This document shows positions 9,665 through 64,000 of a stretch of DNA of 64,000 nucleotides, piece after piece. The first letter of the stretch is position 1; each line of letters begins with the position of its first letter. Origin of the DNA: an uncultured Verrucomicrobiota bacterium (GTDB taxonomy: Bacteria; Verrucomicrobiota; Verrucomicrobiia; Limisphaerales; UBA9464); NCBI GenBank assembly GCA_903907995.1, contig CAIVQH010000041.1, positions 62,001 through 126,000 of the forward strand, written 5' to 3'. The position numbers were made by a program, and so were the translations under genes. The notes under the pieces are model-generated. The model saw only the letters and a list, made by a program, of their open reading frames with translations, did no database searches and had not been told where the DNA came from.

Positions 9665-10233
9665 CGGCTGTCGGGGGGAACGAGTTCCGCGGTGCGCAGC
9701 AGCTTGGAACTCATGGTGAGGTCGGCCGCCTTCAGGGCCTGAGGGCTGATCCGCAGCCGGATCTTGTTGTTCTCGGTGAGAAACTGGACGCACATGCCCT
9801 CATAGGGTGCGTTCCCCACGTCGCGGACCGTCAGTACGGGACGCCCCTTCAGGTCGGCCAGGACCTTGTCCAGCCGTCGCGTTTCGGGCTGGCCGACAAA
9901 CAGGATGTGGCAGGCTCCGATCGCTTCGCCCCGGCGATAGCGGGCGACCACAATTTTCCGGCCATCTTGCGTTTCATCCCGCACCACATCATCGAGCAGC
10001 GGGCCAAAGGGATCTTCCCCGTAGACCCCGATGACAAAGGGGGAATCCGGATGCTCGAAGGCATTGGTCGGCCAGCGGGTGTAATGCGCGAAGTTCAACA
10101 GGAATACCGCCTTGAGCGGGTATTCCCGGGAAACGCCCTGCCCCAAGGCCCCGCCGGCACCGAGACCGGCCCAAAGCAGCCACAGTCCAAAAACAAGCGT
10201 CCAACCCCGGAGTCCCCGCAAGTTCAAGCACAT
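9661..10233 (-). CDS. YfiR-family (DUF4154-like) periplasmic protein
   Basis: The 190-residue protein has a clear signal peptide (MCLNLRGLRGWTLVFGLWLL, cleaved near ALGQG). I preferred this Met to an in-frame start at 10287 for that reason. The mature part reads as YfiR family: EYPLKAVFLLNFAHYTRWP, then FVIGVYGEDPFGPLLDD, CHILFVGQPETRRLDKVLAD, and a terminal KIRLRISPQALKAADLTMSS. In Pseudomonas YfiR is a periplasmic repressor of the diguanylate cyclase YfiN, acting on its CHASE8 sensor. Here the next gene, coupled by ATGA, is a histidine kinase with a CHASE8-like sensor. A TonB-dependent receptor lies directly upstream. This protein may relay receptor state to the kinase. Confidence 0.92.
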   Translation of the reverse strand: MCLNLRGLRGWTLVFGLWLLWAGLGAGGALGQGVSREYPLKAVFLLNFAHYTRWPTNAFEHPDSPFVIGVYGEDPFGPLLDDVVRDETQDGRKIVVARYRRGEAIGACHILFVGQPETRRLDKVLADLKGRPVLTVRDVGNAPYEGMCVQFLTENNKIRLRISPQALKAADLTMSSKLLRTAELVPPDSR

Positions 10234-46416: not shown

Positions 46417-49400
46417 TCAGTTCTTGGGCTTGTTGAAAAGATCAAGCGGGTTGAACTTCGGTTTCGGCGCGTTGGGATCGGCAGGGGCCGCATTGGTCTT
46501 GGGCTTGCCGATCAGATCCAGGGCGTTGTTGATCAGGTTCGGCGCATTCGTGGCTGCCGGGGCGGCATTGGTTTTGGTGCCACCTCCCAGCAAGTTCAGC
46601 AGCCCTGCGGCCTTGTCACCTACGGCACCTGCAGTCCCGCCGACGATGCCCAGGCCGGCCTTGCCGGCCAGCAGCGCCAGCTTGGAATAGGCGATGTCGG
46701 GCTTGGGCACCCCGAGTGTGCCCCTCACCGTCAGGAAGTCCGGCATCGGCGTGTAGGCCGCACCGGTGGAGGTCAGGCCGACCTTCTTGGCCAGCGAATC
46801 CTTGAGCGCGACCGCCACGGGAAGCTCGATCGTGGAATTGGTGAGCACCGGCGCAAACGTGATGGGCCCCTTGGCGTCGATCTGGAAGGCGGGGCTTAGG
46901 ACCTCAGCCTTTTGCAGGTCCACCTTGCCGCCGCCGGCCACCGCATGGGCGGTGATCGAGGAGATAGGCGACTGGCTGAACTCATCCACCCCACCCGTGC
47001 CCTGGCTGCCGCCGCCCAGGCCGGTGAGCTTGCCGAGCGTGCCCAGTCCCGGGCTGCGGATCAGTTCCGGCAGGCCGATCACGATGTTCACGACCGTCTT
47101 GAGGATGGGCGATTTCACGTCGCCGACCTTGAGGTTGAGGTTGGTCGCGGCGAAATCAACCTGACCGTTCAGGTTCTTGCCCAGGCTCGTGCCGGTGACG
47201 CCGGCGCCCTTAAGGGAGGCCTTGACCACCACCGTACCGCCGATCTGGCCGGTGCGCTCGGGCTGGAATGAATTGACGAACGGTGGCAGCGGAATCGTGT
47301 CCCCGTTCAGGGCGAGATCATAGGTATAGCCCGGCACACCCACATCAAACCTGCCCTTGGCGGTCACCGGCGCGCCGTTGAGCCCGAGACTGAAAGGGTC
47401 GAGCGTGACGACGCTCTGACGGATGCTCACCTTGGTGACCCAGTTCGAGATGGCCACCTCGCGCAGCAGCACCTTGGCCAGATTGACATCGAGGTCAAAC
47501 TGCTGGAACGGCAGCCTGATCGCGGCCGGCTCCACGTCGGACGTGTCCTTTGAGGCCGGAGCGGTTCCCTTGGCCGGGGTGGCGGCGGTGGCGGCCGGCT
47601 TGTTCGTGGTGGTGCCCCCCGCGAAGAGGTTATAGAGGGCGGTGAAATCCAGCCCATCGCTCTTCAGGCTCAGCGAACTGGGGGATGGCGCATTCGTGCC
47701 CAGGTCGATCCTGCCGGCGATCAGCAGCTCATTGGCCAGGGTCGCCGTCGGCCCCAGGCCGAGTTGCAACGAATGGAGATCGGTGAGGCTGCCCTTCTGG
47801 CTGACGTCGAATTTAATCCCGAAGCCGAGCGGCGTGGTCGGCAGCCGTTTTGCGGGGTCATCAACGATAAAGTTCGCCACCTTGATTCCGCCCTGGACGC
47901 GGGACTCGCCGGCCAGGTCGAACGTGGCGCTGCCGCTGAGATCAAGACCGATCGAGACCAGCCGGTTCGGGGCGATGGCGGCCGCCACAAACGGGGCCAG
48001 GGCGTTCTGGTTCAGTTCGCTCGACTTGAAATCCAGCTTTCCCTTTTTGGTGGCCAGATCGTATTTCCCGTTCATGTCCACCGATCCGCCGGCCTTGAAA
48101 TTGTCCTGCATCACCACGTTCAGCCGCTGCAACGTGACGGTCCCGCGAATGAGATCAACCGCCGCCGCCACACTGGCTTGGTAGTCCTTGAACTGCATCT
48201 TGCCCAAGCTGCCGGTGAAGTCAGACAGGGCGAGGTCGGTCGAGGCATTGGTGCCGCCCACCTTGGCACCGTACTGCATGGAAAATTTCAGCGCCCCGCT
48301 GCTGGCCATGACATTTTCGACCGGATAGATGGCCAGCACTGCCGGGAGCGACACCTGGCCGTCCAGCTGGGTACCGAGCTCCTGGTCTTTGAAGTGGTAA
48401 TGCACCAGGCCGTTCCAGTTGGCGAGCGACTGGTCACGGTGCCGCAGATCACCCCGGAGTTCATCCACGTTGAACTTGACGAAATCCTCCAGCGAACCGG
48501 TGACCTGCAACGAGAGCGCCAGCTCGCTGAGCCGCCGGCTGCCGAGATCCAGAACGACATTGCGGACGCCGCTGCTGAGCGTGAATTTCAGCATGCGGCC
48601 ATCGTTTTGCGCGGTGATTTTCAGGGTGGTGTCAACGGTGCCGGACGGCAAGGAAGGCCCGGCCAGGGGGCGCCAGGAAGCGAGGTCCAGCCCGCTGAGC
48701 GTGAGCGTGTAGCTCGCCTCGCGGAAGCCGGGTTGGGCCCGGTCCCAGGCGATGTTCATGGGCCGGTCGAACGTGCCGCGGACCAGTTCGCGCCCCTTCT
48801 GGGTGACGGTCAGCTCCGCCCGCTCAATAAGGGCCGTTTTTTCGCTCAGGCTGAGGCTGGCCTTGTAATCGAGGGCAATGTCCAAGGTCGGAGTTACGCC
48901 ATTGGTCGTGGTCAGGCTCAGGTTGGAAACGGTGAGCCGGCCGTTCGAGGCCAGCAGGGTGCCGAGCTGCGCCACATCCACGCGGCCGGTCGCACTCAGG
49001 GTCGTGGCCCCGAAGTCGATCCCGACCAGCGCGCCGGCGATGCCGAGCACCCGCCGGTCGATGCCGGCGATCTCGTAGGTGATCCGTGTCTCCTTCTTTT
49101 CCAGGTCATACGGCCCGCGCAAGCTCAGCCGCCCCAGGTCCTGTCCTTGCTGGCGGAAGGCCAGCCGAAGCTGCGTCAGCTCGGTGGCGCTCACCTCCAG
49201 GTTCAGCGCGGTCCCGAGCGCGGCCACATCCTTGAACGCCCCAGTGGCAGTGGTGACATCCAGATTCAGATCGCCCTTCAAGGACTTCGGATGCAGCTGC
49301 TCGTCCAAGGCGATGGTGAAGGTACCGCCTGCCTTCGCCGCCAGCTGGTCGCCGGTGGCCTTGCTCATCCCGAGCACACTGGCAATTGTGAGTTTGCCCG

Positions 49401-49974
49401 AGGCCGCGTTGCCCAGCTGATCAAGCGTGATGTTCAGCCCGGTGATTTCAACCGTCTCCGCCTTGCCGCCCGCGACCTGCCGGGTCTGGCGCAGCGTGGC
49501 GTTTTTAAGTGTCACGTTGCGGACGTCGAGCTTGGCTGCGGAAGACTGCTTGGAACTGGAGCTCTTCTGGGATTTGCCCAGGCTGCCCAGCAGTTTTTGC
49601 AGGTTGCCGGTGCCATCCGCGCGCTCCAAGACGGTGATCACCGGTGAATCCACCGTTACCTCGTCCACCTTCAGGTTCCCGCGCAATAAGGCGACCAGAC
49701 TGTAACGCACGCGTACCTCCGCCACGGTTGCCAGCGTATCCTCGCCTTTCGGTGTCAGCTTCACCTGCTGCAAGGTGAGCGAGGAAAAAGGACTCAGGGA
49801 CACATCGCTCACACTCAGGTCGCTGCCCAGGCTTCCGCCCACCTGGGGCAGCACCACGGCTTTGAGAAAAGCACCGCTGGTGAGCACAAAATACAGCACC
49901 ACCAGCACCAACGCCGTGATGCCCAGATACTTCGGCCATTTCTTCTGCTTCGGAGGTAACAAGGGGGACGCCAT
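46417..49974 (-). CDS. AsmA-like / DUF748-type envelope protein
   Basis: The 1185-residue protein has a short cytosolic N-terminus, one membrane helix (about 14-36, LGITALVLVVLYFVLTSGAF) and a very long beta-rich periplasmic part. The N-terminal pattern ISDVSLSPFSSLTLQQVKLT-like with VRVRYSLVALLRGNLKVDEV and VDSPVITVLERADGTGNLQK is typical of the AsmA superfamily, whose members bridge inner and outer membrane and are linked to phospholipid transport. The last 100 residues contain degenerate repeats around GKPKTNAAPA and LDLFNKPKN. It is upstream of the M20 dipeptidase gene. The start at 49974 excludes 19 extra residues. Confidence 0.88.
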   Translation of the reverse strand: MASPLLPPKQKKWPKYLGITALVLVVLYFVLTSGAFLKAVVLPQVGGSLGSDLSVSDVSLSPFSSLTLQQVKLTPKGEDTLATVAEVRVRYSLVALLRGNLKVDEVTVDSPVITVLERADGTGNLQKLLGSLGKSQKSSSSKQSSAAKLDVRNVTLKNATLRQTRQVAGGKAETVEITGLNITLDQLGNAASGKLTIASVLGMSKATGDQLAAKAGGTFTIALDEQLHPKSLKGDLNLDVTTATGAFKDVAALGTALNLEVSATELTQLRLAFRQQGQDLGRLSLRGPYDLEKKETRITYEIAGIDRRVLGIAGALVGIDFGATTLSATGRVDVAQLGTLLASNGRLTVSNLSLTTTNGVTPTLDIALDYKASLSLSEKTALIERAELTVTQKGRELVRGTFDRPMNIAWDRAQPGFREASYTLTLSGLDLASWRPLAGPSLPSGTVDTTLKITAQNDGRMLKFTLSSGVRNVVLDLGSRRLSELALSLQVTGSLEDFVKFNVDELRGDLRHRDQSLANWNGLVHYHFKDQELGTQLDGQVSLPAVLAIYPVENVMASSGALKFSMQYGAKVGGTNASTDLALSDFTGSLGKMQFKDYQASVAAAVDLIRGTVTLQRLNVVMQDNFKAGGSVDMNGKYDLATKKGKLDFKSSELNQNALAPFVAAAIAPNRLVSIGLDLSGSATFDLAGESRVQGGIKVANFIVDDPAKRLPTTPLGFGIKFDVSQKGSLTDLHSLQLGLGPTATLANELLIAGRIDLGTNAPSPSSLSLKSDGLDFTALYNLFAGGTTTNKPAATAATPAKGTAPASKDTSDVEPAAIRLPFQQFDLDVNLAKVLLREVAISNWVTKVSIRQSVVTLDPFSLGLNGAPVTAKGRFDVGVPGYTYDLALNGDTIPLPPFVNSFQPERTGQIGGTVVVKASLKGAGVTGTSLGKNLNGQVDFAATNLNLKVGDVKSPILKTVVNIVIGLPELIRSPGLGTLGKLTGLGGGSQGTGGVDEFSQSPISSITAHAVAGGGKVDLQKAEVLSPAFQIDAKGPITFAPVLTNSTIELPVAVALKDSLAKKVGLTSTGAAYTPMPDFLTVRGTLGVPKPDIAYSKLALLAGKAGLGIVGGTAGAVGDKAAGLLNLLGGGTKTNAAPAATNAPNLINNALDLIGKPKTNAAPADPNAPKPKFNPLDLFNKPKN

Positions 49975-50237
49975 GATGTGGATGTAGCTTAGATTTGGGT
50001 CAGCCGTACCGGCCACCCGTGGAAAAAACACGAAAACGACCCGCTGACAATGTTTTGCCAGTCACATTCAGGCCGTCTTCCCCCGCCATCAGTGATGGAC
50101 GGTCGTGGCATTTTCGCCGGGCCGGGGAACGTAGGCGGCGGAACGCCCGGAGCAAGGCTTACTTACCTGACTCCGACCGGGTTGCGAATCCATGGGTCCC
50201 TAGTGTCGGGAAAGAACCGGTCGAAAGGCCTCGGACT

Positions 50238-51179: not shown

Positions 51180-51599
51180 TCATCCTTTTTCGTCATCCTT
51201 TCCCAACGGCCGCTTCCAGATCGGCACGACCCGCTTCATCTCGTCGATCAGCCATTGGCAGGCGGCAAAGGCCTCGGCCCGGTGCGGCGCGACCACTTCC
51301 ACCCAGAGCGACGGCTCGCCAACATTTACAACACCAAGGCGATGGACCAGGCGCACCGAATCGACTGGCCAGCGCTGCTCCAGTTCGTCGAAGAGCAGGC
51401 CAAATTGCCGCTCAACCATGGCGGAAAACCCTTCATATTCGATCCCCGCGATCGGCGCATCACCTTCCCTGCCCCGCACCACCCCGCTGAAGGCAATCGC
51501 CGCCCCCATGCCCGGCGACATCGCCCGGGCCGAGACCAGGGCAGGTTCGTCAATCGGATCCGTGGTCAGTGACAGGGTGCGATGCATGGCATGGCTCAA
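51180..51599 (-). CDS. moaE: Molybdopterin synthase catalytic subunit MoaE
   Basis: Large subunit of molybdopterin synthase, transferring sulfur from the MoaD thiocarboxylate to cyclic pyranopterin phosphate. The 139-residue protein shows GAAIAFSGVVRGREGD, IEYEGFSAMVERQF, RLVHRLGVVNVGEPSLWVEV, and the active-site Lys region IDEMKRVVPIWKRPLG. Its partner moaD is 12 kb away at 63647-63892 on the same strand and on the upstream side. The two are normally adjacent. Three large genes on the opposite strand fill the interval. Confidence 0.95.
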   Translation of the reverse strand: MSHAMHRTLSLTTDPIDEPALVSARAMSPGMGAAIAFSGVVRGREGDAPIAGIEYEGFSAMVERQFGLLFDELEQRWPVDSVRLVHRLGVVNVGEPSLWVEVVAPHRAEAFAACQWLIDEMKRVVPIWKRPLGKDDEKG

Positions 51600-51887
51600 T
51601 TGCGCGCCCCGTGATGCGTCAGGGACGTGCCGGTGGGCAATCGGAAAACCAGTGGAATGGCGAGCGATGGGGGTTCCGAATTTCGAATTGCGGAGTCATG
51701 CGCTGTTCGCCGTCCCCGTTGCTCCCCCCTCCCAGTCTCATCCAGCTCTTACTCTCCGAAAACCAAAAACCAATCACGGCCCTTCCAACCAAATCATTTC
51801 CGCACCGCAGAATTGCGGGCTGGTTTTCGGCCGCCTTTGCTGGTACAAACGCCCCCGTGTTCCGTGAGCTCCCGGCATCCCGCTGAG

Positions 51888-54800
51888 ATGAAAAATCTTC
51901 AGGCCATTCTGGTGATGGTGATGCTGGCCTGGCTCACGGCCCCGTTTGCGCTCGCGACCGGCACAGGAAATGATTCGATCCCCGATTACACAGGAATCCT
52001 GAGCGTCAATGGTGGCAATCTTCCCCCCGTCCCCGTGCAAGGCGACTTCGTGGTCAACGATTTCTCGACCACGAAACCGCTCAGCGGCATCTACCGGCTC
52101 GGATTCAAACTCATCCAGGCCGATGACAGCCCGGCGTCGGCGGAGGTATTTTCGTCCGCGTTCGCGGTCGGATTGCAGCCGCACACCTCGACGAACGGCA
52201 CCAAAAGCGTCGTCCTTTCGCCAGGCTCCCTCACCACCGGCGCACCCTACCGGGTGTTTTCCCAGCTCTACACCACCGGCCCCACCCCCGGGAGCTGGGT
52301 CGTGGCCGGCTTCAGCAGCACGAGCGGCGAGTACCGGTTCGCCCTGGTCGATGCCGGAACGGACAGCGGGGTGGTCGGGCAGCTCAACACCCTGACCCTG
52401 ACCCGGGCCTACGCCGTGGTCACGGCTCCGGCCAGTGATTCGTTCCAGGTCAGCGCGCAGGGCATCATTGGCCGCTTGGACCAAGTCACGCTGCCGGTGA
52501 GCACGGAAGACGACCAGATCTTCTTCGACGTGACGATCACAGGCGACCATACCGGGGTGATCCCGCTCACCAGTCCCCGGACGACGCTGCCGGTGGTCCT
52601 GGCCAATCACACTGCCGGCGGCACGACGGCGGCAGTCGGGATCGACCAGACCATCGACATCCGTCCCGCCGCCCAGATGGATCCGACCGATACCTACACC
52701 CTGACGGTCACAATGTCCCACGCCCGGCCCGATGGCGTGGAGGTGATGGACCGCCAGGTCGTCCTCACGGCGCAGCGGTTCCTGCATTTCAACGGGACGC
52801 TCAGATTTGGCCCGGTCACCACGACGGTGACCGCGATCTATAACGACCCGGATTTTGAAGGGACGGTGGCCGGCACCGGTGAGAACACCGCCCTCGGTAT
52901 CGACACCAATGGCGCCCACCTGGACTCCAACCCCGCCTATCTCCTCACCTCCGGCCAGAACTTCCAGGTCCTGCTCGGCCTCGATGGCACGGCCACCTCG
53001 AACGATCCCGCCACCGTGGACGCACCCACGGGTGCGACTCAGTCGTTGGCGGGTGTCTCCTTCACGCTCGCCGGGCTGACACTGGATTCATCGGGGGCGC
53101 ATGCGACCGGCGGCCGGGTCAGTTTCCCAGCCGGGTTTGGTGTCGCGGCAGCGCCCAATCTCCGCCGCCTGATGGCGGATTTTCCCTTCGGGGCGGTGGA
53201 TCTCGACGCGTCCATGAACCCGGTAGGTGTGGTGGCGCTCCCGCCCGGTTTGGTGGATGCCCTGCAACTGTACGCGGCGCATGAGGATCTGCCGGAGCAG
53301 TTCACGGCCTCCTCGATCTCATGGGACACGGCGGCGGGCACCTTCACGCTGCACCGGACCGACACACGCCACGTGCGCGCGGATGAAAACGCCGCGCTCG
53401 ACGCGCTGGCCCTCACACCGGAAACCCTGGTCGCGAAGATCCGCCCCTCGAACGACGGTTATCTGGCCGCCCCTGGATCAGGCGCCGGCGTGGATGTGGT
53501 GGTGCGCGCGGATGCCTCGGGGCGGGCCATCCTGGACGATGCGACCATCGATCTGCCGCCCTCGCAGTACACGCCGCATTTTCCGGCCGACGCGACGATC
53601 TCGTGGTCGCAGGCGGGGCAATTGGTGATCAAGGCCGGCCTGATCGACACGGCCCGCAGCACGCTGGAAGGCGCCGCTCCCGCCAGGTTCAACACGTTGC
53701 CGGGCGCGCCGGCGTTGACGCTCGTGGGCGGGCTCGAATCGTTCACGTTCCAGCCCACGAACAGCTCCTGGCACATCACGGCCGACGGCGGCCTCCACGC
53801 GGTGGGAACCTTCACCGACGGGACCGTCCGGTGGGGCGCCCGGAGTGGCGGCGCGTTCGTGCAAACGGCGGGCACTTTTACGACCGGTGCGGCCGAGGTT
53901 CCGGGAACCGTATTGCGGGGCGCGTTGGCGGCCTCGCCGACTGACCTCCGGCCCGGGGAGCTTCTGCTCAGCGGCCACGGGAAGCCCGGCGACGAAACCT
54001 ATGTCGAGCGCCCCTTCACGCCGGCTTACGCGGCGGGGTTCGCGGACTATCCAGGTTTGAACGTGCGCCCGGCGGGCGGCGGGGCCGAGACGGCGACGAG
54101 CCTGCTGGGGGACGCCAGCTTCGGGCCCTATCCGTTGGCGGCGGCCGCCAAATATTATTTCCGAAAAGCGGGCGCGAGCGGCATCCAGATGGCGGATCGA
54201 AGTGTCTTCGCCGGCGGCAGCATTAGTCTCCAGATGTATGGCTTCGCGCTGGCCCTGACGGACTACCAGCTCGCCTACCGCGACAACCGGGTGGTGGACT
54301 CGCTCGTCGCCGGCACTGTGAACGTTCCCGGCGCCCACGGGCTGGCGGGGTTCGCGCAGCCATTCTCGAAACTGTTCCTTGATCCGCAGGGCGAGCCCGG
54401 CGAAATGACGCTGCCGCAGAATGGCAGCCTCCAACATCCGCTGGCGTACTGGCACGCGCGCTTCCATCCGCTCAGCGCCGAGTTCGTGGCGAGCACCAGC
54501 GGCCCGAAGACCGAGGCGCTCGTGTTCGGTGCCGAGGTGCTGCTGCCCGCCGTCGTAAAGGACCCCGTGCGCGGGGGGCTCGGCTTTTTTCCCGACGGGC
54601 GGCTGGTGGCGGCCAAGGACGGAATTCCGGGCGTCAATTCGCGGATGAAGCCGCCGAAGAGCGTGGCCCTGCACGGGCCGGGTTCCGCCGCGAACAGCAG
54701 CATCCCCGGCTTCACGGTCAACCCGGTGACGGATTTCTATTTCAATGACCCGGCCGCCATCGGCGCACCGGACGACGGCTTCGTGGCGTTCGCCGGCACG

Positions 54801-57290
54801 ATCGACGTGCCGTTTTTCCAGGACCTGAAGGTCCACGTGCTGGCGCGCGCGGACACGGGCAAGACCGACATTCGCGCCGGCTGGGGGCTGGCCCGGGCCG
54901 GCTGGCCCAATGGCACGAACGACTTCTTCAACGACCGCAACTTTGACACCTCCAACACCGGTTTCCCCTCCGGGCCCGGCTACGCGGCCTATGTCAACGG
55001 GGCCGAGGCGACCAATTTCCTGTACTTCGACGAGAGCGATCCCGCGCACAACCAGCGCAACCTTTTCAACCCGATCGCACGCCAGTCCTGGCTGGGCGGC
55101 GTCAATTTCGCCCTCCCGCTGCTCTGGGACCCCGCGCGCCGCCGGTTTGTGTCGAGCGTGCCCGAGCAGCGCCAGTTCCTCGTGATGACCTCCGAGAGGG
55201 CGATCCAACAGCTCACGCCGTCGGGGGCCGAGATCCGGTTCGGCCTGCAGTTCGACAAGCTGCCGCGGCTCAACCTCGCCTCGCTGTTCATCGACGACCG
55301 CGAGGCGACCCAGGAGCTCGTTAATATCATCCCCGACGGGCCGAAACTGGCGGCCGCCGGGGCGGCATTTGACCAGCTGCTCAACGGCAATTCGGACAAG
55401 CTGGTGGCGGATGGCGTGGATCTCGTCATCGACCAGTTCCTGGACTACCTGCTGGCGAGCGACGGTCCGCTGAAGGGGCTGACGGCATCGGCCGACGCGG
55501 CCAATGCGATCGGTGCCCCGAACACGGCGTCTTTTGCGGCGATCCGGGACCAGCTGAAGGACAAACTGTCGGGCGTGGTCGGGGTCGTCGGCCAGGCGAA
55601 CTCCATCGCCGGCGAGGTTGCCGACGCCTTGGACACCGTGGACCAGGGCCTCACGACGGCCGACACCCTCTTGAAAAAGGACGCGGACGGAAACCGCGGG
55701 GAATTCATCACCGACTCGGTGAACTTGGCGGGCTCCTTCGGTCTGCCGACGGACGCCATCCAGCCGGTGACGGATTCGATCACGACGGAAATCAACGGCG
55801 AGCTGGCCCCCACGCTGGACGACATCGCCAGCACCCTGAACGACATCCACAGCCTGGCGAAATCGGCGCGGAGCCTGGCGGACGACGCCCGGCAGGTGAC
55901 GCAGGGGGCGCTGACGGCAGTGAACGCGGCGGGTGCCCTGCCCGACCAGATCCTGACGGCCCTGCACGACCACTTCGCCCAGGCGCACGATCCCACGGGC
56001 CGCCTGCTCGCCGAGACCGATCCCGCGCAACTGCGGGCCGACCTCAAGCGCGCCGCCCGCGACGTGGTGATGCAGTCGGATTTCCTGGCCCAGGTCCAGC
56101 AGACCGTGCGGGACCTGGTGGAACCGCTGCACGACGAGTTTGGCGTGATGTATGAGCAGGTGTTCGGCGTGATGAACAACGTCGTGCGCTCCGCGTTCGA
56201 GGAGCTGAGCAACCAGGTGGTGGACCACCTCAACGACCAGGTGGGCCAGCTGAACCGCGCGTACGGCGGCTTCAGCAAGACGCTCGAGATGACGAAGATC
56301 GAGGGCAGCGCGCAGATCCTCGGCGAGGTGCTCGACAACGCTCACCTCAACGCGACGCTCGGACTGCACGTGCCCGACAACGTCACCCTCATGGGCTCGG
56401 TAGATTTCAAGCACCTGCAGGGGACCCAGCCGGTGCCGCCTTCGACCATGGACACGCCGGACGGGCGGATGCAGATCACAGTAACGGCGCGGGGCGACGC
56501 CAGTATCGGCGGTTGCCAGGCCGCCCATGCCGAGTTGCACGGCCAATATACCATGAGCGCGAAAGGTGAGCCGCTGGCGCTCTCGGGCGGGCTCTCCCTC
56601 AACGCGGACGTCCACGTGGACATCGTATCGTTGAAGAAGGCCGACTTCGAATTCGCCTTCGGCCCGGTGGACAACTACGTGCGGGCGGAAGGCGCTGGCA
56701 GCATCCTGATATTCGACGTCAACACGCGGGCTTTCTTCGGCCGGACTGGCGATTCCGAACTGGTGAAGTGGATCGATCCCCAGATCGCCGAACTGTACAA
56801 GGCCTTGGGCCGTCCCCCGGTGGATTCCGGCAATCCGCTGACCGGCTACTATGCGATGGCGGACGGCGATGTCGTCCTGAACCGCATCCTCGACATCCCG
56901 GATTCCGTAGTCTTGCTGAAGGCGGGCGGTGGCCAGGGCAACTTCCTGTTCTGCGACAGTGGCCTCACCTCGATCATCCCGGGCATGCACTGGCGTCTGA
57001 GCATCGGCGTCGGGATTGGACCGGCGTCCGCCCGGGCGGACCTCGTGGCCCTCGGGGGCATGGATCCGATTCCGCTGGGACTCTCGGTGCCGGATAAGTT
57101 GCCCGAGATGTCTCTCAGCTACCTCAAGGATCCCCTCTCGCTCTTTCACGGAGCGGTGACTGGGCGGTTCACGCCGAAGTTCGAGGTGGGGCCGGCCTCG
57201 TGGTCCCAGGATTTTGATTTCACCGCCCAGGGCGAATACATCCCAGGACCACCCCCAGGTTTTTTCATTGTGAGAAAACTCAATTTCTGA
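51888..57290 (+). CDS. 1800-residue secreted protein of unknown function (cassette gene 1)
   Basis: The ATG at 51888 opens a signal peptide (MKNLQAILVMVMLAWLTAPF, cut near ALA). The frame is open to 51627, but that part is low-quality sequence overlapping the moaE flank. The first 1100 residues are beta-rich with Ig-like character and no motif I can name. Residues about 1130-1485 are strikingly different, a long helical stretch (for example GEVADALDTVDQGLTTADTL, IASTLNDIHSLAKSARSLAD, QTVRDLVEPLHDEFGVMYEQ). The final 300 residues return to beta structure. The next gene starts 3 bp after its stop. No catalytic motif, lipobox, anchor or C-terminal sorting signal is visible. Confidence 0.8.
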   Translation: MKNLQAILVMVMLAWLTAPFALATGTGNDSIPDYTGILSVNGGNLPPVPVQGDFVVNDFSTTKPLSGIYRLGFKLIQADDSPASAEVFSSAFAVGLQPHTSTNGTKSVVLSPGSLTTGAPYRVFSQLYTTGPTPGSWVVAGFSSTSGEYRFALVDAGTDSGVVGQLNTLTLTRAYAVVTAPASDSFQVSAQGIIGRLDQVTLPVSTEDDQIFFDVTITGDHTGVIPLTSPRTTLPVVLANHTAGGTTAAVGIDQTIDIRPAAQMDPTDTYTLTVTMSHARPDGVEVMDRQVVLTAQRFLHFNGTLRFGPVTTTVTAIYNDPDFEGTVAGTGENTALGIDTNGAHLDSNPAYLLTSGQNFQVLLGLDGTATSNDPATVDAPTGATQSLAGVSFTLAGLTLDSSGAHATGGRVSFPAGFGVAAAPNLRRLMADFPFGAVDLDASMNPVGVVALPPGLVDALQLYAAHEDLPEQFTASSISWDTAAGTFTLHRTDTRHVRADENAALDALALTPETLVAKIRPSNDGYLAAPGSGAGVDVVVRADASGRAILDDATIDLPPSQYTPHFPADATISWSQAGQLVIKAGLIDTARSTLEGAAPARFNTLPGAPALTLVGGLESFTFQPTNSSWHITADGGLHAVGTFTDGTVRWGARSGGAFVQTAGTFTTGAAEVPGTVLRGALAASPTDLRPGELLLSGHGKPGDETYVERPFTPAYAAGFADYPGLNVRPAGGGAETATSLLGDASFGPYPLAAAAKYYFRKAGASGIQMADRSVFAGGSISLQMYGFALALTDYQLAYRDNRVVDSLVAGTVNVPGAHGLAGFAQPFSKLFLDPQGEPGEMTLPQNGSLQHPLAYWHARFHPLSAEFVASTSGPKTEALVFGAEVLLPAVVKDPVRGGLGFFPDGRLVAAKDGIPGVNSRMKPPKSVALHGPGSAANSSIPGFTVNPVTDFYFNDPAAIGAPDDGFVAFAGTIDVPFFQDLKVHVLARADTGKTDIRAGWGLARAGWPNGTNDFFNDRNFDTSNTGFPSGPGYAAYVNGAEATNFLYFDESDPAHNQRNLFNPIARQSWLGGVNFALPLLWDPARRRFVSSVPEQRQFLVMTSERAIQQLTPSGAEIRFGLQFDKLPRLNLASLFIDDREATQELVNIIPDGPKLAAAGAAFDQLLNGNSDKLVADGVDLVIDQFLDYLLASDGPLKGLTASADAANAIGAPNTASFAAIRDQLKDKLSGVVGVVGQANSIAGEVADALDTVDQGLTTADTLLKKDADGNRGEFITDSVNLAGSFGLPTDAIQPVTDSITTEINGELAPTLDDIASTLNDIHSLAKSARSLADDARQVTQGALTAVNAAGALPDQILTALHDHFAQAHDPTGRLLAETDPAQLRADLKRAARDVVMQSDFLAQVQQTVRDLVEPLHDEFGVMYEQVFGVMNNVVRSAFEELSNQVVDHLNDQVGQLNRAYGGFSKTLEMTKIEGSAQILGEVLDNAHLNATLGLHVPDNVTLMGSVDFKHLQGTQPVPPSTMDTPDGRMQITVTARGDASIGGCQAAHAELHGQYTMSAKGEPLALSGGLSLNADVHVDIVSLKKADFEFAFGPVDNYVRAEGAGSILIFDVNTRAFFGRTGDSELVKWIDPQIAELYKALGRPPVDSGNPLTGYYAMADGDVVLNRILDIPDSVVLLKAGGGQGNFLFCDSGLTSIIPGMHWRLSIGVGIGPASARADLVALGGMDPIPLGLSVPDKLPEMSLSYLKDPLSLFHGAVTGRFTPKFEVGPASWSQDFDFTAQGEYIPGPPPGFFIVRKLNF

Positions 57291-57293
57291 CGG

Positions 57294-60200
57294 ATGCCCC
57301 CCCTGCGAACCATCCTGGCGGTCTGGACCGCGGCGCTGCTGGGCGGCGCGCTGGTGCTCGCGCCGGCGCGCGCGGCGGAACCGTTGCCGCCGTTGGTGAC
57401 GACCACCGCCACCAGCACGACCGATCCGGGCGGCCGGCCGTGGGGGTTCATCGCGCTCGGGGAAAACCGACCGGGCCTCATCAGGGGGCACAATTTCGCG
57501 GTATACTCCAAATCAACAGCGGGCGGGCCCTTCAGCCTGCGGGGCGTCATCGCGCCCACGGCGGATCCGACCGCGATCAGCGTGCTGCTGGCACGCGGAG
57601 CGGCCCTCGGCGACAGCCTGCCGGCGCTCGAAGCCCAGTTAGGTGCCTTGCACGCGCTGCTGCTCACGCCGCCGGGGCAACCCGCCCGCACCAATCCGCC
57701 GGCCATGTCACTGGCGCAGCGGCTGGCCGCGCTCCAGGCACGGGCGGCGGGCGACACGCGGATTGGCGGCCTGCTGGACCTGTACGGCCTTTCGCATCCG
57801 GCACTCCGGCTGGTGCGCGGGACCGCCTGGGCCGGGCGTCTGGACATTCCGGTAGGCACCGAGGTGGTGCTGGAGGTGCGCGAACGTGACCCGTCCGGAA
57901 CCGATCTCGCAGTGATTGGACGGGTGACGGTCCACGCCGGCCTGGCCGACTCCCTGCCCGCCCCCGGTCCGCTCGTGGCGGTGCCGGACACCACCGCCCA
58001 GGGCGACCTCACCGTGCGGCTGCGCTGGGCTACGTCGGATGCGCTCCGGCAGGCCGGTCCACGGCATCAGGGCGACGTCGTCTGGCGTCTGTCCAAGACC
58101 TTCGCCGAAGCGCGTGGCTTTGACGCAAAAGCGCCCTCGGCCGCCGTGCTCGATGGCCTTGCGCTGACCGGCGGAGGGGACGTCTTGCGCCTGCCGGGTC
58201 CGGTGTATCCGGCCAAGCTGTTTGACTTGGCGAGTGTGGGCGATTTCGCCCTGGACCGGACCAACTCCTATCTCGCCGATGACAATGGGCGCTTTCTGGC
58301 CGGCGGGGTGCCGTTCGTCGAGGGCGCGCAGTATTATTACTTCGCAGCGGCGGCCGACCCCCTCGGGCGGCCGGGCGACGTCTCTGGCGGGCTGCTGGCC
58401 ACCGCCTATCGTCGGCTGCCCCCGCACATGCCCTCGCGGCTCCGGGTCAGTCTCCAGTGGGACCGGACCAACCACCAGTATTGGGATGTCTCCTGGGCAC
58501 CCAATCCGCCCGACGGCGGTACCCCGACGACCGGCTACGAGCTGTACCGGGGGAGCGATTTTGCGCAGTTGACGGCGGCGCAGCGCGGCGGGCTGAACCT
58601 CGAGGCGAATCCCATCATCCCCGGCAACCCCGTGGCCATCCAACGGGTCGCGGTCGTGGACGATCCGGGCGCCGCGGCCGGACCGGCGCTGCATGTGCTC
58701 GTACCGGGTGACGGTTCGTATGGCACGAACTGGTGGTTCGCGGTCCGCGCGGTCCGCGCGGTCCACGCGAGTCCGCCGGGCGGCGCCAAGCTCGTGTCAT
58801 CCCTCAGTCCGCCCGCGTTGGGGGCCCTCCGCAACACCGCCGCCCCGCCGGCTCCTGATCCCTCCAGCTTTACGAAACCGGTGATCGACTGCCTGCGGGT
58901 CGCCTGCATCGTGGACCAGCCACCGGTGGCCGAGGTGGCGGACGCCGCGCTCGACGGGTCGGCGGTCGCCTACATCGCCCGCTGCCGGCGGCAGCCGGGC
59001 ATCGGCGCGGCGCACTTCCTGGTGAAGAACCTGGATGACGGCACCACCGTAGTCCCGGAAACGGTCGTGGTGTTTCCGCCCGATGAGGACGTGGTGGAAC
59101 TGGATTGGACGCTGCCCCTGTCCAAGGTGGGCGCGAACCTGGAAGTGAGCTGCGCCGGAGAGGTGCTCGGCACGCACCTGAGCGACTGGGCAACCTCGGC
59201 GCACGCCGGCGTGGTGCCCGCCGGAAATCAGCGCATGGCGTACGCCTTTCTCGCCGGTGCGATCGCGGAGTCGGAACGCAAGGCGTTGCCAGCGGGTGAC
59301 CGCCTGTTCGGTGGACTGACCCCGGGCTGTTCGGCCGACTGGCCGGCGAACACCCACCTGGTCGTGTCGCCCGGGACCGGCCTCATCCTGCATCCTTCCT
59401 TCAACGTCCCGCTGGGCGAAAAGGCCCGGCAATATCGCGTGTATCGCCGCATTGAAAATGGACCGATGACCCTCATTGCGCAGGGGCTCCATGATTACAC
59501 CGGCCCCGGGTCCAGCGTGGCCTGCGAGGATACTGCGCCGCCGGTTTCCAACGGGCGGGTCCACTATTTCTCGCAGTTCCTCGACGAGAACGGCCGCCCG
59601 AGCACGATGCACCTCCTGGCCCGGCTGACCTTCACGGGCGACGCGCCGCCGGTCCCGGTCTTGCTCACGCCAACGCCCACCGATTTCTCGGGCACGCTGG
59701 CCGCGCCGGTGGTAACGCTGTCCTGGGTTGAGCCGCCGGAACATGCCGAGCGGTTCGAGATCTTCTTCGCCACAGAGGCGCTGCCGCGGGACACTACGCC
59801 TCAGGTCAGCAGCCTGGTCGCGCACCTCAACCAGCAGCTGAACCCAACCCCGGTCGTCTGGAAAGTCCATGACCGGCTGGGCGGCTCCGTCCGGTCGGTG
59901 GTGCCACTGCAGCAAAGCTTCCTGACCGGGCGCGTCGGCGGCGACCTGGGGCCGGGACCGCGCTTCACGGTCACCATGGGGGTCAATCCGTCGCTCAAAT
60001 ACCGCGTCTGGATGCGGGCCCTGGGACCGGGCGGCGAACCCAGCGACCAGAGCCGGGTCGTCGAGTTCCAGTGGCAGCCGCCCGCCACGCCGCCCGCCAA
60101 CATCGCCTGGCCGGCGCGTCCGTTGCCGCCGGTCGCCGCGTTCAATGCCGGAATCCAGGCCGTCGATTTCCGGGATGTCCCGGATACCCGACTCATTTGG

Positions 60201-60767
60201 GGCTACACCCAGAATGGCGCGGTGGCGATCCCGTTGCGCTCAGTTCAGGTGGATTCGACGCCGGTCGGCATCCGCGTCGGCTCACTGGCCATCGACAACG
60301 ACGGCGCCCGGGCCAATTTCGACCCCAATCCCCCGAACGGCCCGATCTTCCGTACGCCCACTTTCTCCGCGACGTTCGGCAAGGCGGACCCGAACAAGCA
60401 GCTCTTCACCCGCGACGGCGACTCCAGGCAACTGCTTCTGCCCTGCGTGCTTTACCGGACCCAGGTCGCGAACGACCGTTTCCCCGCCGTAAGCGGCGAT
60501 GTGATCCAGTGCTCCCCGTTGATCAACGGCATCGCCTGGGTCTCTTTCCCTTCGGACGGCAACGGCTCCGCGGGCGAACTGGCGGACCCGCTGTTCCGTT
60601 GGGTCGGGCCGGATTATCCCACCACGCCGGTGCTGGACCTATATCTCGTGGACACCCAACCGGTGGTCCAGGGCGCGCGCTACCGGTATTGGCTGGTGCG
60701 GTTCTCGGACCTGGGTGAGCCGATCCAGACGGTTCCGTGCGGGGAGGTCACGGTGAAATCGCCATGA
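57294..60767 (+). CDS. 1157-residue secreted Fn3-like protein of unknown function (cassette gene 2)
   Basis: Signal peptide MPPLRTILAVWTAALLGGAL, cut near ARA. The protein is beta-rich with at least two fibronectin-III-like regions: about 377-515 (RVSLQWDRTNHQYWDVSWAP, then TPTTGYELYRGSDF) and about 785-925 (VTLSWVEPPEHAERFEIFFA, ending YRVWMRALGPGGEPSDQS). Other segments also read as Fn3-type (VARYRYWLVRFSDLGEPIQT near the end). It starts 3 bp after gene 1 and overlaps the start of gene 3 by ATGA, so the three are translated as a unit. No enzyme motif seen; likely a scaffold or adhesin-like partner of proteins 1 and 3. Confidence 0.8.
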   Translation: MPPLRTILAVWTAALLGGALVLAPARAAEPLPPLVTTTATSTTDPGGRPWGFIALGENRPGLIRGHNFAVYSKSTAGGPFSLRGVIAPTADPTAISVLLARGAALGDSLPALEAQLGALHALLLTPPGQPARTNPPAMSLAQRLAALQARAAGDTRIGGLLDLYGLSHPALRLVRGTAWAGRLDIPVGTEVVLEVRERDPSGTDLAVIGRVTVHAGLADSLPAPGPLVAVPDTTAQGDLTVRLRWATSDALRQAGPRHQGDVVWRLSKTFAEARGFDAKAPSAAVLDGLALTGGGDVLRLPGPVYPAKLFDLASVGDFALDRTNSYLADDNGRFLAGGVPFVEGAQYYYFAAAADPLGRPGDVSGGLLATAYRRLPPHMPSRLRVSLQWDRTNHQYWDVSWAPNPPDGGTPTTGYELYRGSDFAQLTAAQRGGLNLEANPIIPGNPVAIQRVAVVDDPGAAAGPALHVLVPGDGSYGTNWWFAVRAVRAVHASPPGGAKLVSSLSPPALGALRNTAAPPAPDPSSFTKPVIDCLRVACIVDQPPVAEVADAALDGSAVAYIARCRRQPGIGAAHFLVKNLDDGTTVVPETVVVFPPDEDVVELDWTLPLSKVGANLEVSCAGEVLGTHLSDWATSAHAGVVPAGNQRMAYAFLAGAIAESERKALPAGDRLFGGLTPGCSADWPANTHLVVSPGTGLILHPSFNVPLGEKARQYRVYRRIENGPMTLIAQGLHDYTGPGSSVACEDTAPPVSNGRVHYFSQFLDENGRPSTMHLLARLTFTGDAPPVPVLLTPTPTDFSGTLAAPVVTLSWVEPPEHAERFEIFFATEALPRDTTPQVSSLVAHLNQQLNPTPVVWKVHDRLGGSVRSVVPLQQSFLTGRVGGDLGPGPRFTVTMGVNPSLKYRVWMRALGPGGEPSDQSRVVEFQWQPPATPPANIAWPARPLPPVAAFNAGIQAVDFRDVPDTRLIWGYTQNGAVAIPLRSVQVDSTPVGIRVGSLAIDNDGARANFDPNPPNGPIFRTPTFSATFGKADPNKQLFTRDGDSRQLLLPCVLYRTQVANDRFPAVSGDVIQCSPLINGIAWVSFPSDGNGSAGELADPLFRWVGPDYPTTPVLDLYLVDTQPVVQGARYRYWLVRFSDLGEPIQTVPCGEVTVKSP

Positions 60768-63613
60768 AACCGAACCTCTCCCGGCTGTTCGCCGCGCTCG
60801 GCCTGCTGTTGCTGGTGGTTTCCGGCCACGCGCAGAATGCTTCGCTCCGGTCTTCCGTGGTCTTCTCGATCACTGATTTTGCCCAAAGTGGTCCCGCCCT
60901 GAGTGTCAGCACCAATCTCGTGGCCACCGGCAAATCGTCGTTCCTCACGCCCATCAGCGTGGGCGATGCCCGGACCTATGGAGCGGGCCGGGCGAGCGCG
61001 TACGCCACCGGGCGGGCCGGAGTACTGCGCTGCCTCAGCACCGGAGGGTTTGATTACTTCGTCCCCAGCACCACCGAGGGTGGTTACACCGAATGCACGG
61101 CCAGCGTGGCAGTCGAGGACTTCGTCACGGTGTCGTCCACCACCCTGCCCCCGGGCACCGTCGTGACCTTGTCCTTCACTTTGGGAGTGAAAGGAACTGT
61201 CTCCGCGCCGGCGGCCGATCAGCGGCGCCCCGGAATCACGGCGGACCTTTCCGTCAATGTGGTCGCCGCGACCCAGGTCGCCACCCAGTTCAAAGCCCTC
61301 TCCCACCTGCAGGGCACCCTGGGGACGGTCACCTACGACGTGCAGGCGACGGTCGGGGAAACATTCAGGCTGCTCTACGAGCTCGACGCCAGCACCTACC
61401 TGAGCAGCAGCATTGCCGACTATCGCGACCTTTCCAGCGACGGCTACACCGCCGATCAAGGCGCGACCCTGAGCATCATTCCGCAGGACGCTTCCAACGT
61501 CAGCCTCACCGCCGCCAGCGGCTATGACTATGGGACCACATCCAATCCGACCGGCGGTTCCGATCCCAATTCGGCGCCGTTCGTGACGGAGACCGACGCC
61601 GAGCTGGCCGCGCCGCTGGACGCCAATGCGGATGGCCAGCCGGACTATCTCGTCATCGACAAGGTCACCGGGATTCGCCGGCTCGGCTTGCAGCAGCCGG
61701 ATGGCTCCTTCCAATGGGCCGATCCTGCTTCCACTGGGATCGAGAATGTCACGGGCCTGGGAATCGGCCATTTTGCGTCGGCGGGGGCGGCCGAGGGTTT
61801 CGCCGTCGCGGCGCCGCTTTGGAACCGGGTCAATGTTTTCCCGGATGCCCAGGGCGATTCCACGGTGGCGCCTTCCGTGGGCATCGGGCCGGCCTTCGTG
61901 GTGGGCATCGACTTCGCCGGCGACACGAGGGAGGATTTGGCGATCGGCACGATCTGGGACCGGGCGGACATCCCGACCCATCTTTCCGGGCTGGTCTCCG
62001 ATGCCGGCGGATTGAGCCTGAACTTCGGCCCGCAAGCAGAAACGGGGCCGTTCTCCCGGGGAAACCGGACGCATCTGGCGCCCAATGCGCCCTGGTTGGT
62101 GGGTGCGTTCCGCGAGGGAGACCAGACCCGGGATTTTGTGCTCCGCTCAGTTTCTACTTCGGCCAGCCAGCCCGACGGACCGACCTTGCCGGGACTCGCG
62201 CCGGATACTGAATGGGCCTGGGGGCAGTTCCAGACGAACACTCCGGCCAGCTTCCTCTTTTATTCGCCCGGCGCTTCCAACCTATACGTGACCGCCGTCC
62301 AGGGCACGGCTCCCGGTCCCTACTCGTGGCCGGCGGGCAACACCTATGCCTTCGATCTGCCCATCAGCCGGGTGCTCGTGCTCCCGGCCGGGACCGTGGC
62401 CATGCTGCTGATCGTGTTCGAAGACGGGAACAGTGCGGCCACTTACGACTTTGACGGGAGGAGCGCGCCGGTCTTGCGGCAGCGTATGACCGCGCCAGCT
62501 GGCCTCAAATTCTCGGCCGGGGGCGCGTTGGCCAACGGCGCATTCATCCTGTTGGGAGGTCCCAACGGAGCGCATGGCACCTCCACGACCTGGCAGCACT
62601 GGGGCTTCGACGGCACCCAGCACAAGCTCCTCGCCAGCGGTGGCCTGCCCGGCTTGAACGTGTCCCAAACCCGCGCGAACCTGCTCCTCTTCACCGCCAA
62701 TCCCGACTTGGATCCGGACGCAGTGCTGGTCCACACCCTGCGCGTCGGCGACTGGAGTGACAGCGCAGCGCCCCTGGGGGGAACCTTGCAGGTGATCCGG
62801 GAGCAGTTCCTGGGGACCTCCCCCGGGCTGGGCTCGCCGGGCACGACGAATGTCACTGCGCTGGCGGGCCTGTTCCCGGTCGTCAACCAGCACGCCCCGC
62901 CCGACAGCGTGGCCGTATTTGAACCGCCCACGGCGGCGGCATTCACCGGGCTCTCATTTTCACCGGCCCCGGGCACCTACCACACCACGGGCGGTGCTGG
63001 GCTTCAGGTCCGGATGAGTTCGGCGTCGGGGGCACCCATCTTCTACCGCCTCGGCGTGTCGCAGCCCTGGGTGGCGTATTTGGATTCGGCTCCGCCCACG
63101 ATTCTCGCCACCACGACCTTCCAGGCCTATGTGGACGATCCGCAGCCCAGCCCCTTGCAATCGGCGACCTATGTCATTGCGGACGCCCCGGGCATCGTCG
63201 TTGGGCCGTCCGTGGACACCAACCACAATGGCCTGCCCGATGCGTGGGAGCAGGCCTTTGGCGTCAGCGATCCGAACGGCGATCCGGACGGGGACGGAGC
63301 GACCAACCTTCAGGAGTACCTCGCCGGCACCGACCCCCTGGACGCCACATCGGTCCCGCCCGTTAATCCGGTGGATCTCGGGTTGGTGGCGCGCTTCCCC
63401 GGAGCCGGCGCGCCCGCCGGCACCTTTTGCGAGATCGCCTGGCAGGTGACTTCGGCGACGGTCGTGCTGGAGACCACGGAGGATCTCAACGATCCCTCGT
63501 CCTGGGTGCCTGCCGCCGGAACCGAAATCACGGTCGGTTCGGAACGCATCCACTACGAACCCGCCAGCGACGCCCGTGACCTGCGCTATTACCGCCTGCG
63601 CGTGAATCCGTGA
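60764..63613 (+). CDS. 949-residue secreted protein with FG-GAP-like and calcium-binding C-terminal repeats (cassette gene 3)
   Basis: The start overlaps the stop of gene 2 (ATGA, 60764-60767). Signal peptide MKPNLSRLFAALGLLLLVVS, cut near GHAQ. Residues about 285-455 look like FG-GAP-type propeller blades (AAPLDANADGQPDYLVIDKV; GIDFAGDTREDLAIGTIWD). Residues about 819-860 carry thrombospondin-3/dockerin-like calcium motifs (DTNHNGLPDAWE; DPDGDGATNLQEYLAGTDPL). The last 80 residues (LETTEDLNDPSSWVPAAGTE to LRYYRLRVNP) match a C-terminal module seen in two other secreted proteins here. Its place at the end of a coupled three-gene unit suggests it is the surface-attached or ligand-binding member. 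Confidence 0.82.
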   Translation: MKPNLSRLFAALGLLLLVVSGHAQNASLRSSVVFSITDFAQSGPALSVSTNLVATGKSSFLTPISVGDARTYGAGRASAYATGRAGVLRCLSTGGFDYFVPSTTEGGYTECTASVAVEDFVTVSSTTLPPGTVVTLSFTLGVKGTVSAPAADQRRPGITADLSVNVVAATQVATQFKALSHLQGTLGTVTYDVQATVGETFRLLYELDASTYLSSSIADYRDLSSDGYTADQGATLSIIPQDASNVSLTAASGYDYGTTSNPTGGSDPNSAPFVTETDAELAAPLDANADGQPDYLVIDKVTGIRRLGLQQPDGSFQWADPASTGIENVTGLGIGHFASAGAAEGFAVAAPLWNRVNVFPDAQGDSTVAPSVGIGPAFVVGIDFAGDTREDLAIGTIWDRADIPTHLSGLVSDAGGLSLNFGPQAETGPFSRGNRTHLAPNAPWLVGAFREGDQTRDFVLRSVSTSASQPDGPTLPGLAPDTEWAWGQFQTNTPASFLFYSPGASNLYVTAVQGTAPGPYSWPAGNTYAFDLPISRVLVLPAGTVAMLLIVFEDGNSAATYDFDGRSAPVLRQRMTAPAGLKFSAGGALANGAFILLGGPNGAHGTSTTWQHWGFDGTQHKLLASGGLPGLNVSQTRANLLLFTANPDLDPDAVLVHTLRVGDWSDSAAPLGGTLQVIREQFLGTSPGLGSPGTTNVTALAGLFPVVNQHAPPDSVAVFEPPTAAAFTGLSFSPAPGTYHTTGGAGLQVRMSSASGAPIFYRLGVSQPWVAYLDSAPPTILATTTFQAYVDDPQPSPLQSATYVIADAPGIVVGPSVDTNHNGLPDAWEQAFGVSDPNGDPDGDGATNLQEYLAGTDPLDATSVPPVNPVDLGLVARFPGAGAPAGTFCEIAWQVTSATVVLETTEDLNDPSSWVPAAGTEITVGSERIHYEPASDARDLRYYRLRVNP

Positions 63614-63627
63614 ACTCACTCGCAACT

Positions 63628-63642
63628 CGCAACTCGTAACTC
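63628..63642. repeat. 15-bp dispersed motif, inverted copy at 30538-30552
   Basis: 'cgcaactcgtaactc' at 63628-63642 is the exact reverse complement of 30538-30552. It lies in the 33-bp gap between cassette gene 3 and moaD, within a longer run of 'actcgcaactcgcaactcg'. Confidence 0.6.
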
Positions 63643-63646
63643 CCCT

Positions 63647-63892
63647 TCACCCTCCCTGCACCGGCGGGAATAGCGACACCTCATCCCCGGCCCGGAGCAC
63701 CTGGCTGGGATCGGCATAATCCACCCCCACGGCAATGAGCGTGGATTTGCGCAGAGCGGCCAGTTGGGGATGACGCGCATAGACGGCATTCAGCACCTCC
63801 TCGACGGTGGCACCTTCCGCCAGTTCGACCTCGACACTCGCCACCCCGGCGAGATCGCGGAAGTAGGACCAGAGCTGGACAGGAACCGTCAC
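63647..63892 (-). CDS. moaD: Molybdopterin synthase sulfur-carrier subunit MoaD
   Basis: The 81-residue ubiquitin-like protein receives sulfur as a thiocarboxylate on its C-terminal glycine and donates it through MoaE. It opens MTVPVQLWSYFRDLAGVASV and has the core VELAEGATVEEVLNAVYARH. It ends with the essential diglycine in SLFPPVQGG. It is the partner of the moaE gene 12 kb downstream on the same strand. The upstream remainder of the window (63893-64000) has no gene that I can support. Confidence 0.93.
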   Translation of the reverse strand: MTVPVQLWSYFRDLAGVASVEVELAEGATVEEVLNAVYARHPQLAALRKSTLIAVGVDYADPSQVLRAGDEVSLFPPVQGG

Positions 63893-64000
63893 AAATTTCG
63901 AAGGGCGAATTTCAAATTACGAATCACGAGTGATGCGAGTGATCCCCAGCATGCGGAAACCCGGAGTCCGCGACAATGGAACTTGAAACGATGTATACCC

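Follow-up and report, generated by a model that had tools for sequence, protein, structure and literature searches.

Do three giant genes packed end to end in an uncultured Verrucomicrobiota bacterium encode a single system and, if so, of what kind? The genes lie towards one end of the window (the whole 64,000-nucleotide stretch of DNA analysed here), which belongs to a 5.1 Mb assembly of 60 contigs. A sequence-only reading had described proteins of 1800, 1157 and 949 residues, the first two genes separated by a 3-bp gap and the last two joined by an ATGA overlap; the coordinates of the three genes (P1, P2 and P3) and of the site in which they sit match this description exactly:

51180..51599 (minus strand): moaE-like gene, one edge of the insertion site
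51888..57290 (plus strand): P1 gene, stop included, 1800 aa; the family-defining giant protein
57291..57293 (plus strand): P1-P2 spacer, 3 bp (CGG)
57294..60767 (plus strand): P2 gene, stop included, 1157 aa; Fn3-like similarity marginal and in few relatives
60764..60767 (plus strand): stop-start overlap of P2 and P3, ATGA
60764..63613 (plus strand): P3 gene, stop included, 949 aa
63647..63892 (minus strand): moaD-like gene, the other edge of the insertion site

P1 runs from an ATG at 51888 to a stop codon at 57288-57290, P2 from an ATG at 57294 to a stop at 60765-60767, and P3 from an ATG at 60764 to a stop at 63611-63613. The table of open reading frames gives longer versions of P1 (1887 aa) and P3 (958 aa), because of upstream GTG codons; the ATG starts, which the earlier reading had also chosen, yield signal-like N-termini. 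A strict signal-peptide rule of our own is satisfied by each of the window's three proteins, in line with the earlier statement that each has a signal peptide. Among relatives the same rule is passed by 28/62 P1, 50/63 P2 and 42/58 P3, as against 29/165 neighbouring ORFs (read from an ATG or a picked start), these counts favouring the trio somewhat as the starts had themselves been picked with a looser signal rule; the start codon of P1 is also hard to place. The looser rule (61/62 P1, 60/63 P2, 56/58 P3) was discarded as a measure, since 112/154 control ORFs pass it too. Antisense to P1 there is a 1337-aa open frame (window 53478-57491, minus strand), probably an artefact of high G+C codon usage.

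Turning to how widely the genes occur, relatives of P1 (22-91% identical to the window protein) were found at every level sampled: 19 of 50 genomes from the family have one, as do 53 of 245 from the order (34 of 115 genera) and 24 of 387 from the phylum, some outside the class; the window's own genome is included in each count. In three of these genomes, G088 and G277 among the 53 and G457 among the 24, the match is limited to the helical segment of P1 (E 6e-5 to 6e-4) and could be a false positive. A contig search with the window P1, reaching close relatives only, returned two loci, both in Verrucomicrobia MAGs, and a full-text literature search (Verrucomicrobiota with FG-GAP, Fn3, giant or large secreted proteins; subscription papers and bioRxiv lying outside it) found no description of the trio.

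Flanking DNA was fetched for many, not all, of the P1 matches, giving 87 stretches, 86 of them with P1, window included. A same-strand P2 comes next after 80 of the 82 P1 genes whose end is closed and that are followed by 500 bp or more of sequence. The sequence-only reading had proposed a system, to be checked by whether homologues co-occur in the same order, and they do: P1-P2-P3 follow each other on one strand in 69 of the 71 P1 loci, the window's among them, for which 5 kb or more of downstream sequence is available, which excludes the possibility that the homologues occur mainly as unrelated singletons. Of the two loci that depart from this, one is a permuted trio (L111; order P2-P3-P1, with P2 split) and the other a P1 standing alone (L163) in a genome, G518, that has a P2-P3 pair on another contig and carries a further complete trio (L175). 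Two complete trios stand in tandem in G089, their P1 proteins being ~28% identical. Viewed genome by genome, P1 and P2 coincide exactly, 16 of 48 relatives having both and the other 32 neither; in seven further P1-bearing genomes of the family P2 was found in 7/7. The spacing is also close to constant, with an estimated median gap of 3.5 bp between P1 and P2 (n=80 loci) and of -4 bp between P2 and P3 (n=71; exactly -4 in 36/71), estimates that depend on a choice of start which favoured those near the preceding stop. At one locus (L167) 6.6 kb separates P1 from P2.

The surroundings of the trio bear on how it came to its present place. In the window genome and in G007 it sits between moaD and moaE, antisense to both (genes that we take to be moaD-like and moaE-like from their sequences), and in seven others of the ten genomes searched moaD and moaE are directly adjacent. 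Four of these empty-site genomes belong to the same genus and have no P1 match (G005, G006, G008, G010), the remaining three have P1 elsewhere (G004, G001, G040), and in G009, which is 54% complete, moaE was not recovered. The occupied and empty forms of the site imply that the trio entered it, or moved to it, as one block. Within the 12.0 kb moaE-moaD interval, where the trio makes up the only long plausible genes and the other ORFs overlap it in other frames, no transposase or integrase was recognised (judged by position). The G+C fraction of the trio, 0.673 against 0.643 for the remainder of the window, differs little. Degenerate short repeats, AATTTCGAATT / AACTCGCAACTCGTAACTC, occur at window 51675-51700, 63610-63645 and 63890-63945, that is, close to either end of the block and also further out; they may play a part in insertion. 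A moaE-like frame is also found upstream of a trio from another family of the order (L108, 2-349, plus strand), where, in contrast to the window, frame and trio share a strand; possibly this is chance, possibly a preferred site. The nearest relative of the window trio (L034, in G007, contig C42, 10784-17731, minus strand; contig shared with L032) has P1 and P2 fused in one 2315-aa frame that lacks P1 after ~residue 1574 and the first 428 residues of P2, with P3 intact; either a real deletion or an assembly error could account for this.

Movement over greater distances is suggested by a FastTree phylogeny of P1, in which L106, from the window's order, is sister with full support to L162, from another class, and L157, from the window's class and outside its order, stands next to that pair. 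We consider horizontal transfer the best reading of the sister placement; the tree (which has some long branches elsewhere) suggests transfer between classes. As for possible carriers, the window P1 matched none of 72,556 plasmids, and a two-pattern scan of IMG/VR returned no relatives from the P1 alignment.

The three proteins have also diverged in step, their pairwise divergences correlating with r of 0.949, 0.884 and 0.928 across 64 complete trios (mirror-tree); none of 500 label shuffles reached the observed value in any of the three cases, the shuffles ignoring shared species history, which also adds to such correlations. This set, used for the tree as well, comprises 64 of the 86 P1 loci, the requirement being 1100 aa or more of P1, 700 aa of P2 and 450 aa of P3 matched; the permuted L111 was omitted, as were, among others with a weak P3, L123, L125 and L126, in which the match is confined to the later part of the P3 profile. 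That P1, P2 and P3 form a conserved functional unit, inherited and transferred together, is well supported. The retention of their order in many Verrucomicrobiota makes it very likely that the three proteins work together, and when the conserved linkage is taken with the spacing and the block transfer we regard joint function as close to certain. A conserved operon of exported proteins that act separately and share no assembly is a reading of low probability: it can appeal to the one genome in which P1 lies apart from the P2-P3 pair, but across several classes the linkage is almost perfect, the spacing close to zero and the divergence correlated. What seemed to be three unrelated-looking giant proteins can thus be treated as one system, with a gene set, a phyletic range, an empty site and a division into constant and variable parts, directly testable in culturable Verrucomicrobiota.

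What, then, are the proteins? For P1, the sequence can be divided as follows:

52194..52400 (plus strand): P1 residues 103-171, copy 1 of the internal repeat (self-comparison of P1 by hhalign, probability 69 over 66 columns)
52638..52844 (plus strand): P1 residues 251-319, second copy (same hhalign match)
53145..55277 (plus strand): P1 residues 420-1130, conserved core by alignment; no convincing Pfam or PDB relative
55296..56288 (plus strand): P1 residues ~1137-1467, long helical segment flanked on either side by a probably beta-rich part (from the secondary structure in a low-confidence model)
56250..57287 (plus strand): P1 residues 1455-1800, C-terminal glycine-rich part, probably beta, by alignment; no convincing relative

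The internal repeat, the only match to exceed a probability of 40 when 530 pairs of blocks from the three proteins were compared by hhalign, is probably an Ig-like beta domain. Near-invariant residues of P1 are mostly glycine, proline and aromatics, with few polar positions (H564, K755, R759, D1020), and two cysteines are conserved in the C-terminal part (1519, 1621). The model of residues 601-1800, built from three sequences, has a mean pLDDT of 31.6. Matches of P1 profiles to the PDB fall mostly on the helical segment and are mostly to coiled coils and helical bundles; matches there are, in our judgement, coiled-coil noise. Sub-profiles of the core and C-terminal part found nothing in the PDB below E 0.35, Pfam scans of 44 core and 44 C-terminal members gave single-member matches only (best E 0.0013; EHN in 1/44 cores), and no convincing relative of the core emerged from Pfam, NCBIfam or the PDB. 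Among 16 full-length P1 proteins Pfam reports EHN in 3 (best E 0.0017), Big_5 in 1 (E 0.0063) and Baculo_PEP_C in 5 (best E 0.012). Identities for P1 based on ZorA, MCE, phrog_16352, Baculo_PEP_C or EHN were set aside as weak. The earlier description of P1 as almost wholly unassignable therefore holds even with 44 diverged members in hand, and we see in it a strong contender for a new fold family.

The glycine-rich, probably beta segments in the core and C-terminus of P1, which to our eye resemble AsmA-like strands, raise the idea of an export or lipid-conduit machine, in which P1, with a hydrophobic groove as in AsmA/TamB proteins, would carry lipid or polymer across the envelope and P2 and P3 would lie on the outside; weak MCE-family matches (NCBIfam; 2/16 P1, best E 0.0003) lean the same way. 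Those matches probably reflect the helical segment, however, where most PDB matches fall, and AsmA/TamB families are absent from the Pfam results for all 16 full-length, 44 core and 44 C-terminal P1 sequences, so we think such a conduit very unlikely.

P2 offers less to hold on to. Its pattern can be read by eye as Fn3-like, and for the earlier mention of Fn3-like segments the matches are marginal: Fn3 is matched in 2/17 P2 members (best E 0.0016) and in 1/37 of a larger set (best E 0.019), support that dropped rather than rose as members were added, and Pfam finds nothing in the window P2 itself. The model of P2 residues 28-1157 (three sequences) has a mean pLDDT of 30.3. Fully conserved polar residues include E194, R196, D329, D355, Q761 and D1098; together with those of P1, these may mark a catalytic site.

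P3 carries the most recognisable modules of the three, and has two parts that need placing:

60764..61558 (plus strand): P3 residues 1-265, extra N-terminal part, absent from most relatives (conservation profile ~zero to residue 250)
63281..63346 (plus strand): P3 residues 840-861, TSP3 repeat (Pfam TSP3_bac, E 0.0028, below the curated cut-off)

Most relatives begin to align at P3 residue ~268-286. At E <=0.1, the Pfam matches of 39 P3 proteins are FG-GAP_3 in 22, TSP3 in 21, FG-GAP in 14 (best E of any FG-GAP type 7.2e-5), CHB_HEX_C_1 in 11 and PD40 in 9, with RCC1, He_PIG, RibLong and Big domains in single members each. The proposal of FG-GAP-like and calcium-repeat segments is accordingly sound for the family (22 and 21 of 39, respectively), and for the window P3 it survives in its calcium-repeat half, Pfam matching TSP3 and leaving FG-GAP unmatched. 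Bacterial proteins with FG-GAP, integrin-type beta-propellers are described in PMC3192720, and P3 relatives resemble them in having FG-GAP-type repeats with Asp-rich, probably calcium-binding loops; unlike them, P3 is one of three linked proteins, of which P1 and P2 are not FG-GAP. NCBIfam models for the Myxococcus TSP3 surface proteins MtsD and CglD and for Akkermansia Amuc_1099 match 9, 6 and 11 of 14 P3 proteins (E <=0.1). For the window P3 the Amuc_1099 model is the only one of the three to match, at residues 837-867, which is the TSP3 stretch, where it scores 28.2 bits, the model's cut-off being 50.

Modules of FG-GAP, TSP3 and chitobiase-C-like type suggest extracellular binding. They also bring in the possibility of a polymer-degrading or nutrient-uptake complex, with P3 or P2 as enzyme or carbohydrate binder and P1 as scaffold, to which the chitobiase-C-like domain of 11/39 P3 proteins (E <=0.1) and the conserved polar residues of P2 would lend themselves. 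We find this improbable, given that no glycosidase, lyase or peptidase domain dominates the scans (Vgb_lyase has one match among 39 P3, EHN being confined to the few P1 matches above) and that no uptake genes were seen to recur beside the trio, among neighbour clusters named by eye.

Where the protein would go after export is less marked in the sequence. The whole genome of the window has no match to the Por secretion tail of type IX secretion cargo (PF18962); PEP-CTERM, LPXTG and T9SS models of NCBIfam match none of 14 P3 and 16 P1 proteins, the myxosortase- and rhombosortase-dependent M36 models match 1/14 P3 each, and neither a sorting signal nor a membrane anchor emerged.

A further property of P3 is its variable C-terminus. 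A front of ~570 profile positions is common to 58 proteins (selected for a long P3 match and having a placed start) and the tails differ: 37 share one long type, 10 a second, and 11, the window included, are short, the grouping needing alignments of at least 200 aa, so that short tails could not link. The number of PD40-bearing P3 proteins (9) equals that of second-type members in the 39-protein Pfam scan, and we infer that the PD40, RCC1, He_PIG, RibLong and Big domains are located in the tail. Length has a coefficient of variation of 0.066 for P1 (n=62), 0.053 for P2 (n=63) and 0.188 for P3 (n=58). Constant lengths of P1 and P2 beside a variable P3 tail suggest scaffold and specificity parts.

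The same variability could be read as the mark of a secreted antagonism or toxin system, P3 bearing an effector at its C-terminus and P1-P2 serving as delivery body, after the manner of Tc or polymorphic toxins; three giant, closely linked and probably exported proteins, signs of mobility and the presence of several different trios in one genome would all be in keeping with this. Tc (ABC) toxin complexes, which we take to be similar in comprising co-encoded giant proteins, one with propeller-type repeats, are marked by RHS/YD repeats and by SpvB/TcdB or TcA domains. The trio differs in having none of these, nor HINT or toxin domains, in Pfam scans at E <=0.1 of 16 P1, 17 and 37 P2, and 14 and 39 P3 proteins. 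To polymorphic toxin systems, as portrayed in PMC3482391, the likeness lies in an exported giant protein with a variable C-terminus; the trio departs from them in lacking a toxin or HINT domain and a widely recurrent immunity-like neighbour, no small downstream gene of that kind being widespread in 66 loci (ORFs of at least 80 aa). The extra domains of P3 are, moreover, of propeller, Ig-like and TSP3 types. The domain scans give the earlier suggestion of a 'toxin-like' complex no support, and we hold this reading to be very unlikely indeed.

We favour instead, at a probability of roughly 0.45 and thus somewhat short of even odds, the reading of the trio as a co-transferred exported assembly that binds a surface or polymer. 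The three genes would be expressed together and their products all exported through Sec, presumably meeting outside the inner membrane. P1 and P2, nearly constant in length, would form the scaffold, P1 as a large beta-rich body bearing a long helical segment and P2 as a rod of beta-sandwich domains. P3 would face outwards, with a constant FG-GAP-type propeller head, calcium-binding linkers and lineage-specific C-terminal modules. The job of the assembly would be to bind a surface or polymer (for attachment to other cells, to particles or to polysaccharides); P3 would determine the target, and specificity would change through an extra trio or a new P3 tail. A bolder version, which we put forward as doubtful, is that of an undescribed mobile extracellular machine of Verrucomicrobiota, composed of a new-fold beta body with a helical stalk (P1), a connector (P2) and an exchangeable, calcium-dependent propeller tip (P3), which lineages would re-target by swapping P3 tails or stacking trios. 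P1 and the trio fit no known family; the general kind, an extracellular assembly, may prove to be a known one.

Genes beyond the trio show little constancy, with no widely shared fourth gene beside it in 66 of the 86 P1 loci (ORFs of at least 80 aa). The biggest neighbour cluster (14 loci) consists of frames antisense to the front of P1 in one clade; further clusters, named by eye, are of histidine kinases (12 loci), Ser/Thr kinase/WD40-like proteins (9) and response regulators (9). Kinases and response regulators were taken for abundant families and not for parts of the unit. Elsewhere in the window, and all on the minus strand, lie a hybrid sensor kinase of 1483 aa, recognised by eye, that has multiple PAS domains and a receiver domain (5342-9793), a probably exported protein of 1954 aa (16233-22097), which by eye we take to resemble proteins with lamin-tail and CotH-kinase-like domains, and a 1204-aa protein (46417-50031) that is, again by eye, presumably AsmA-like.
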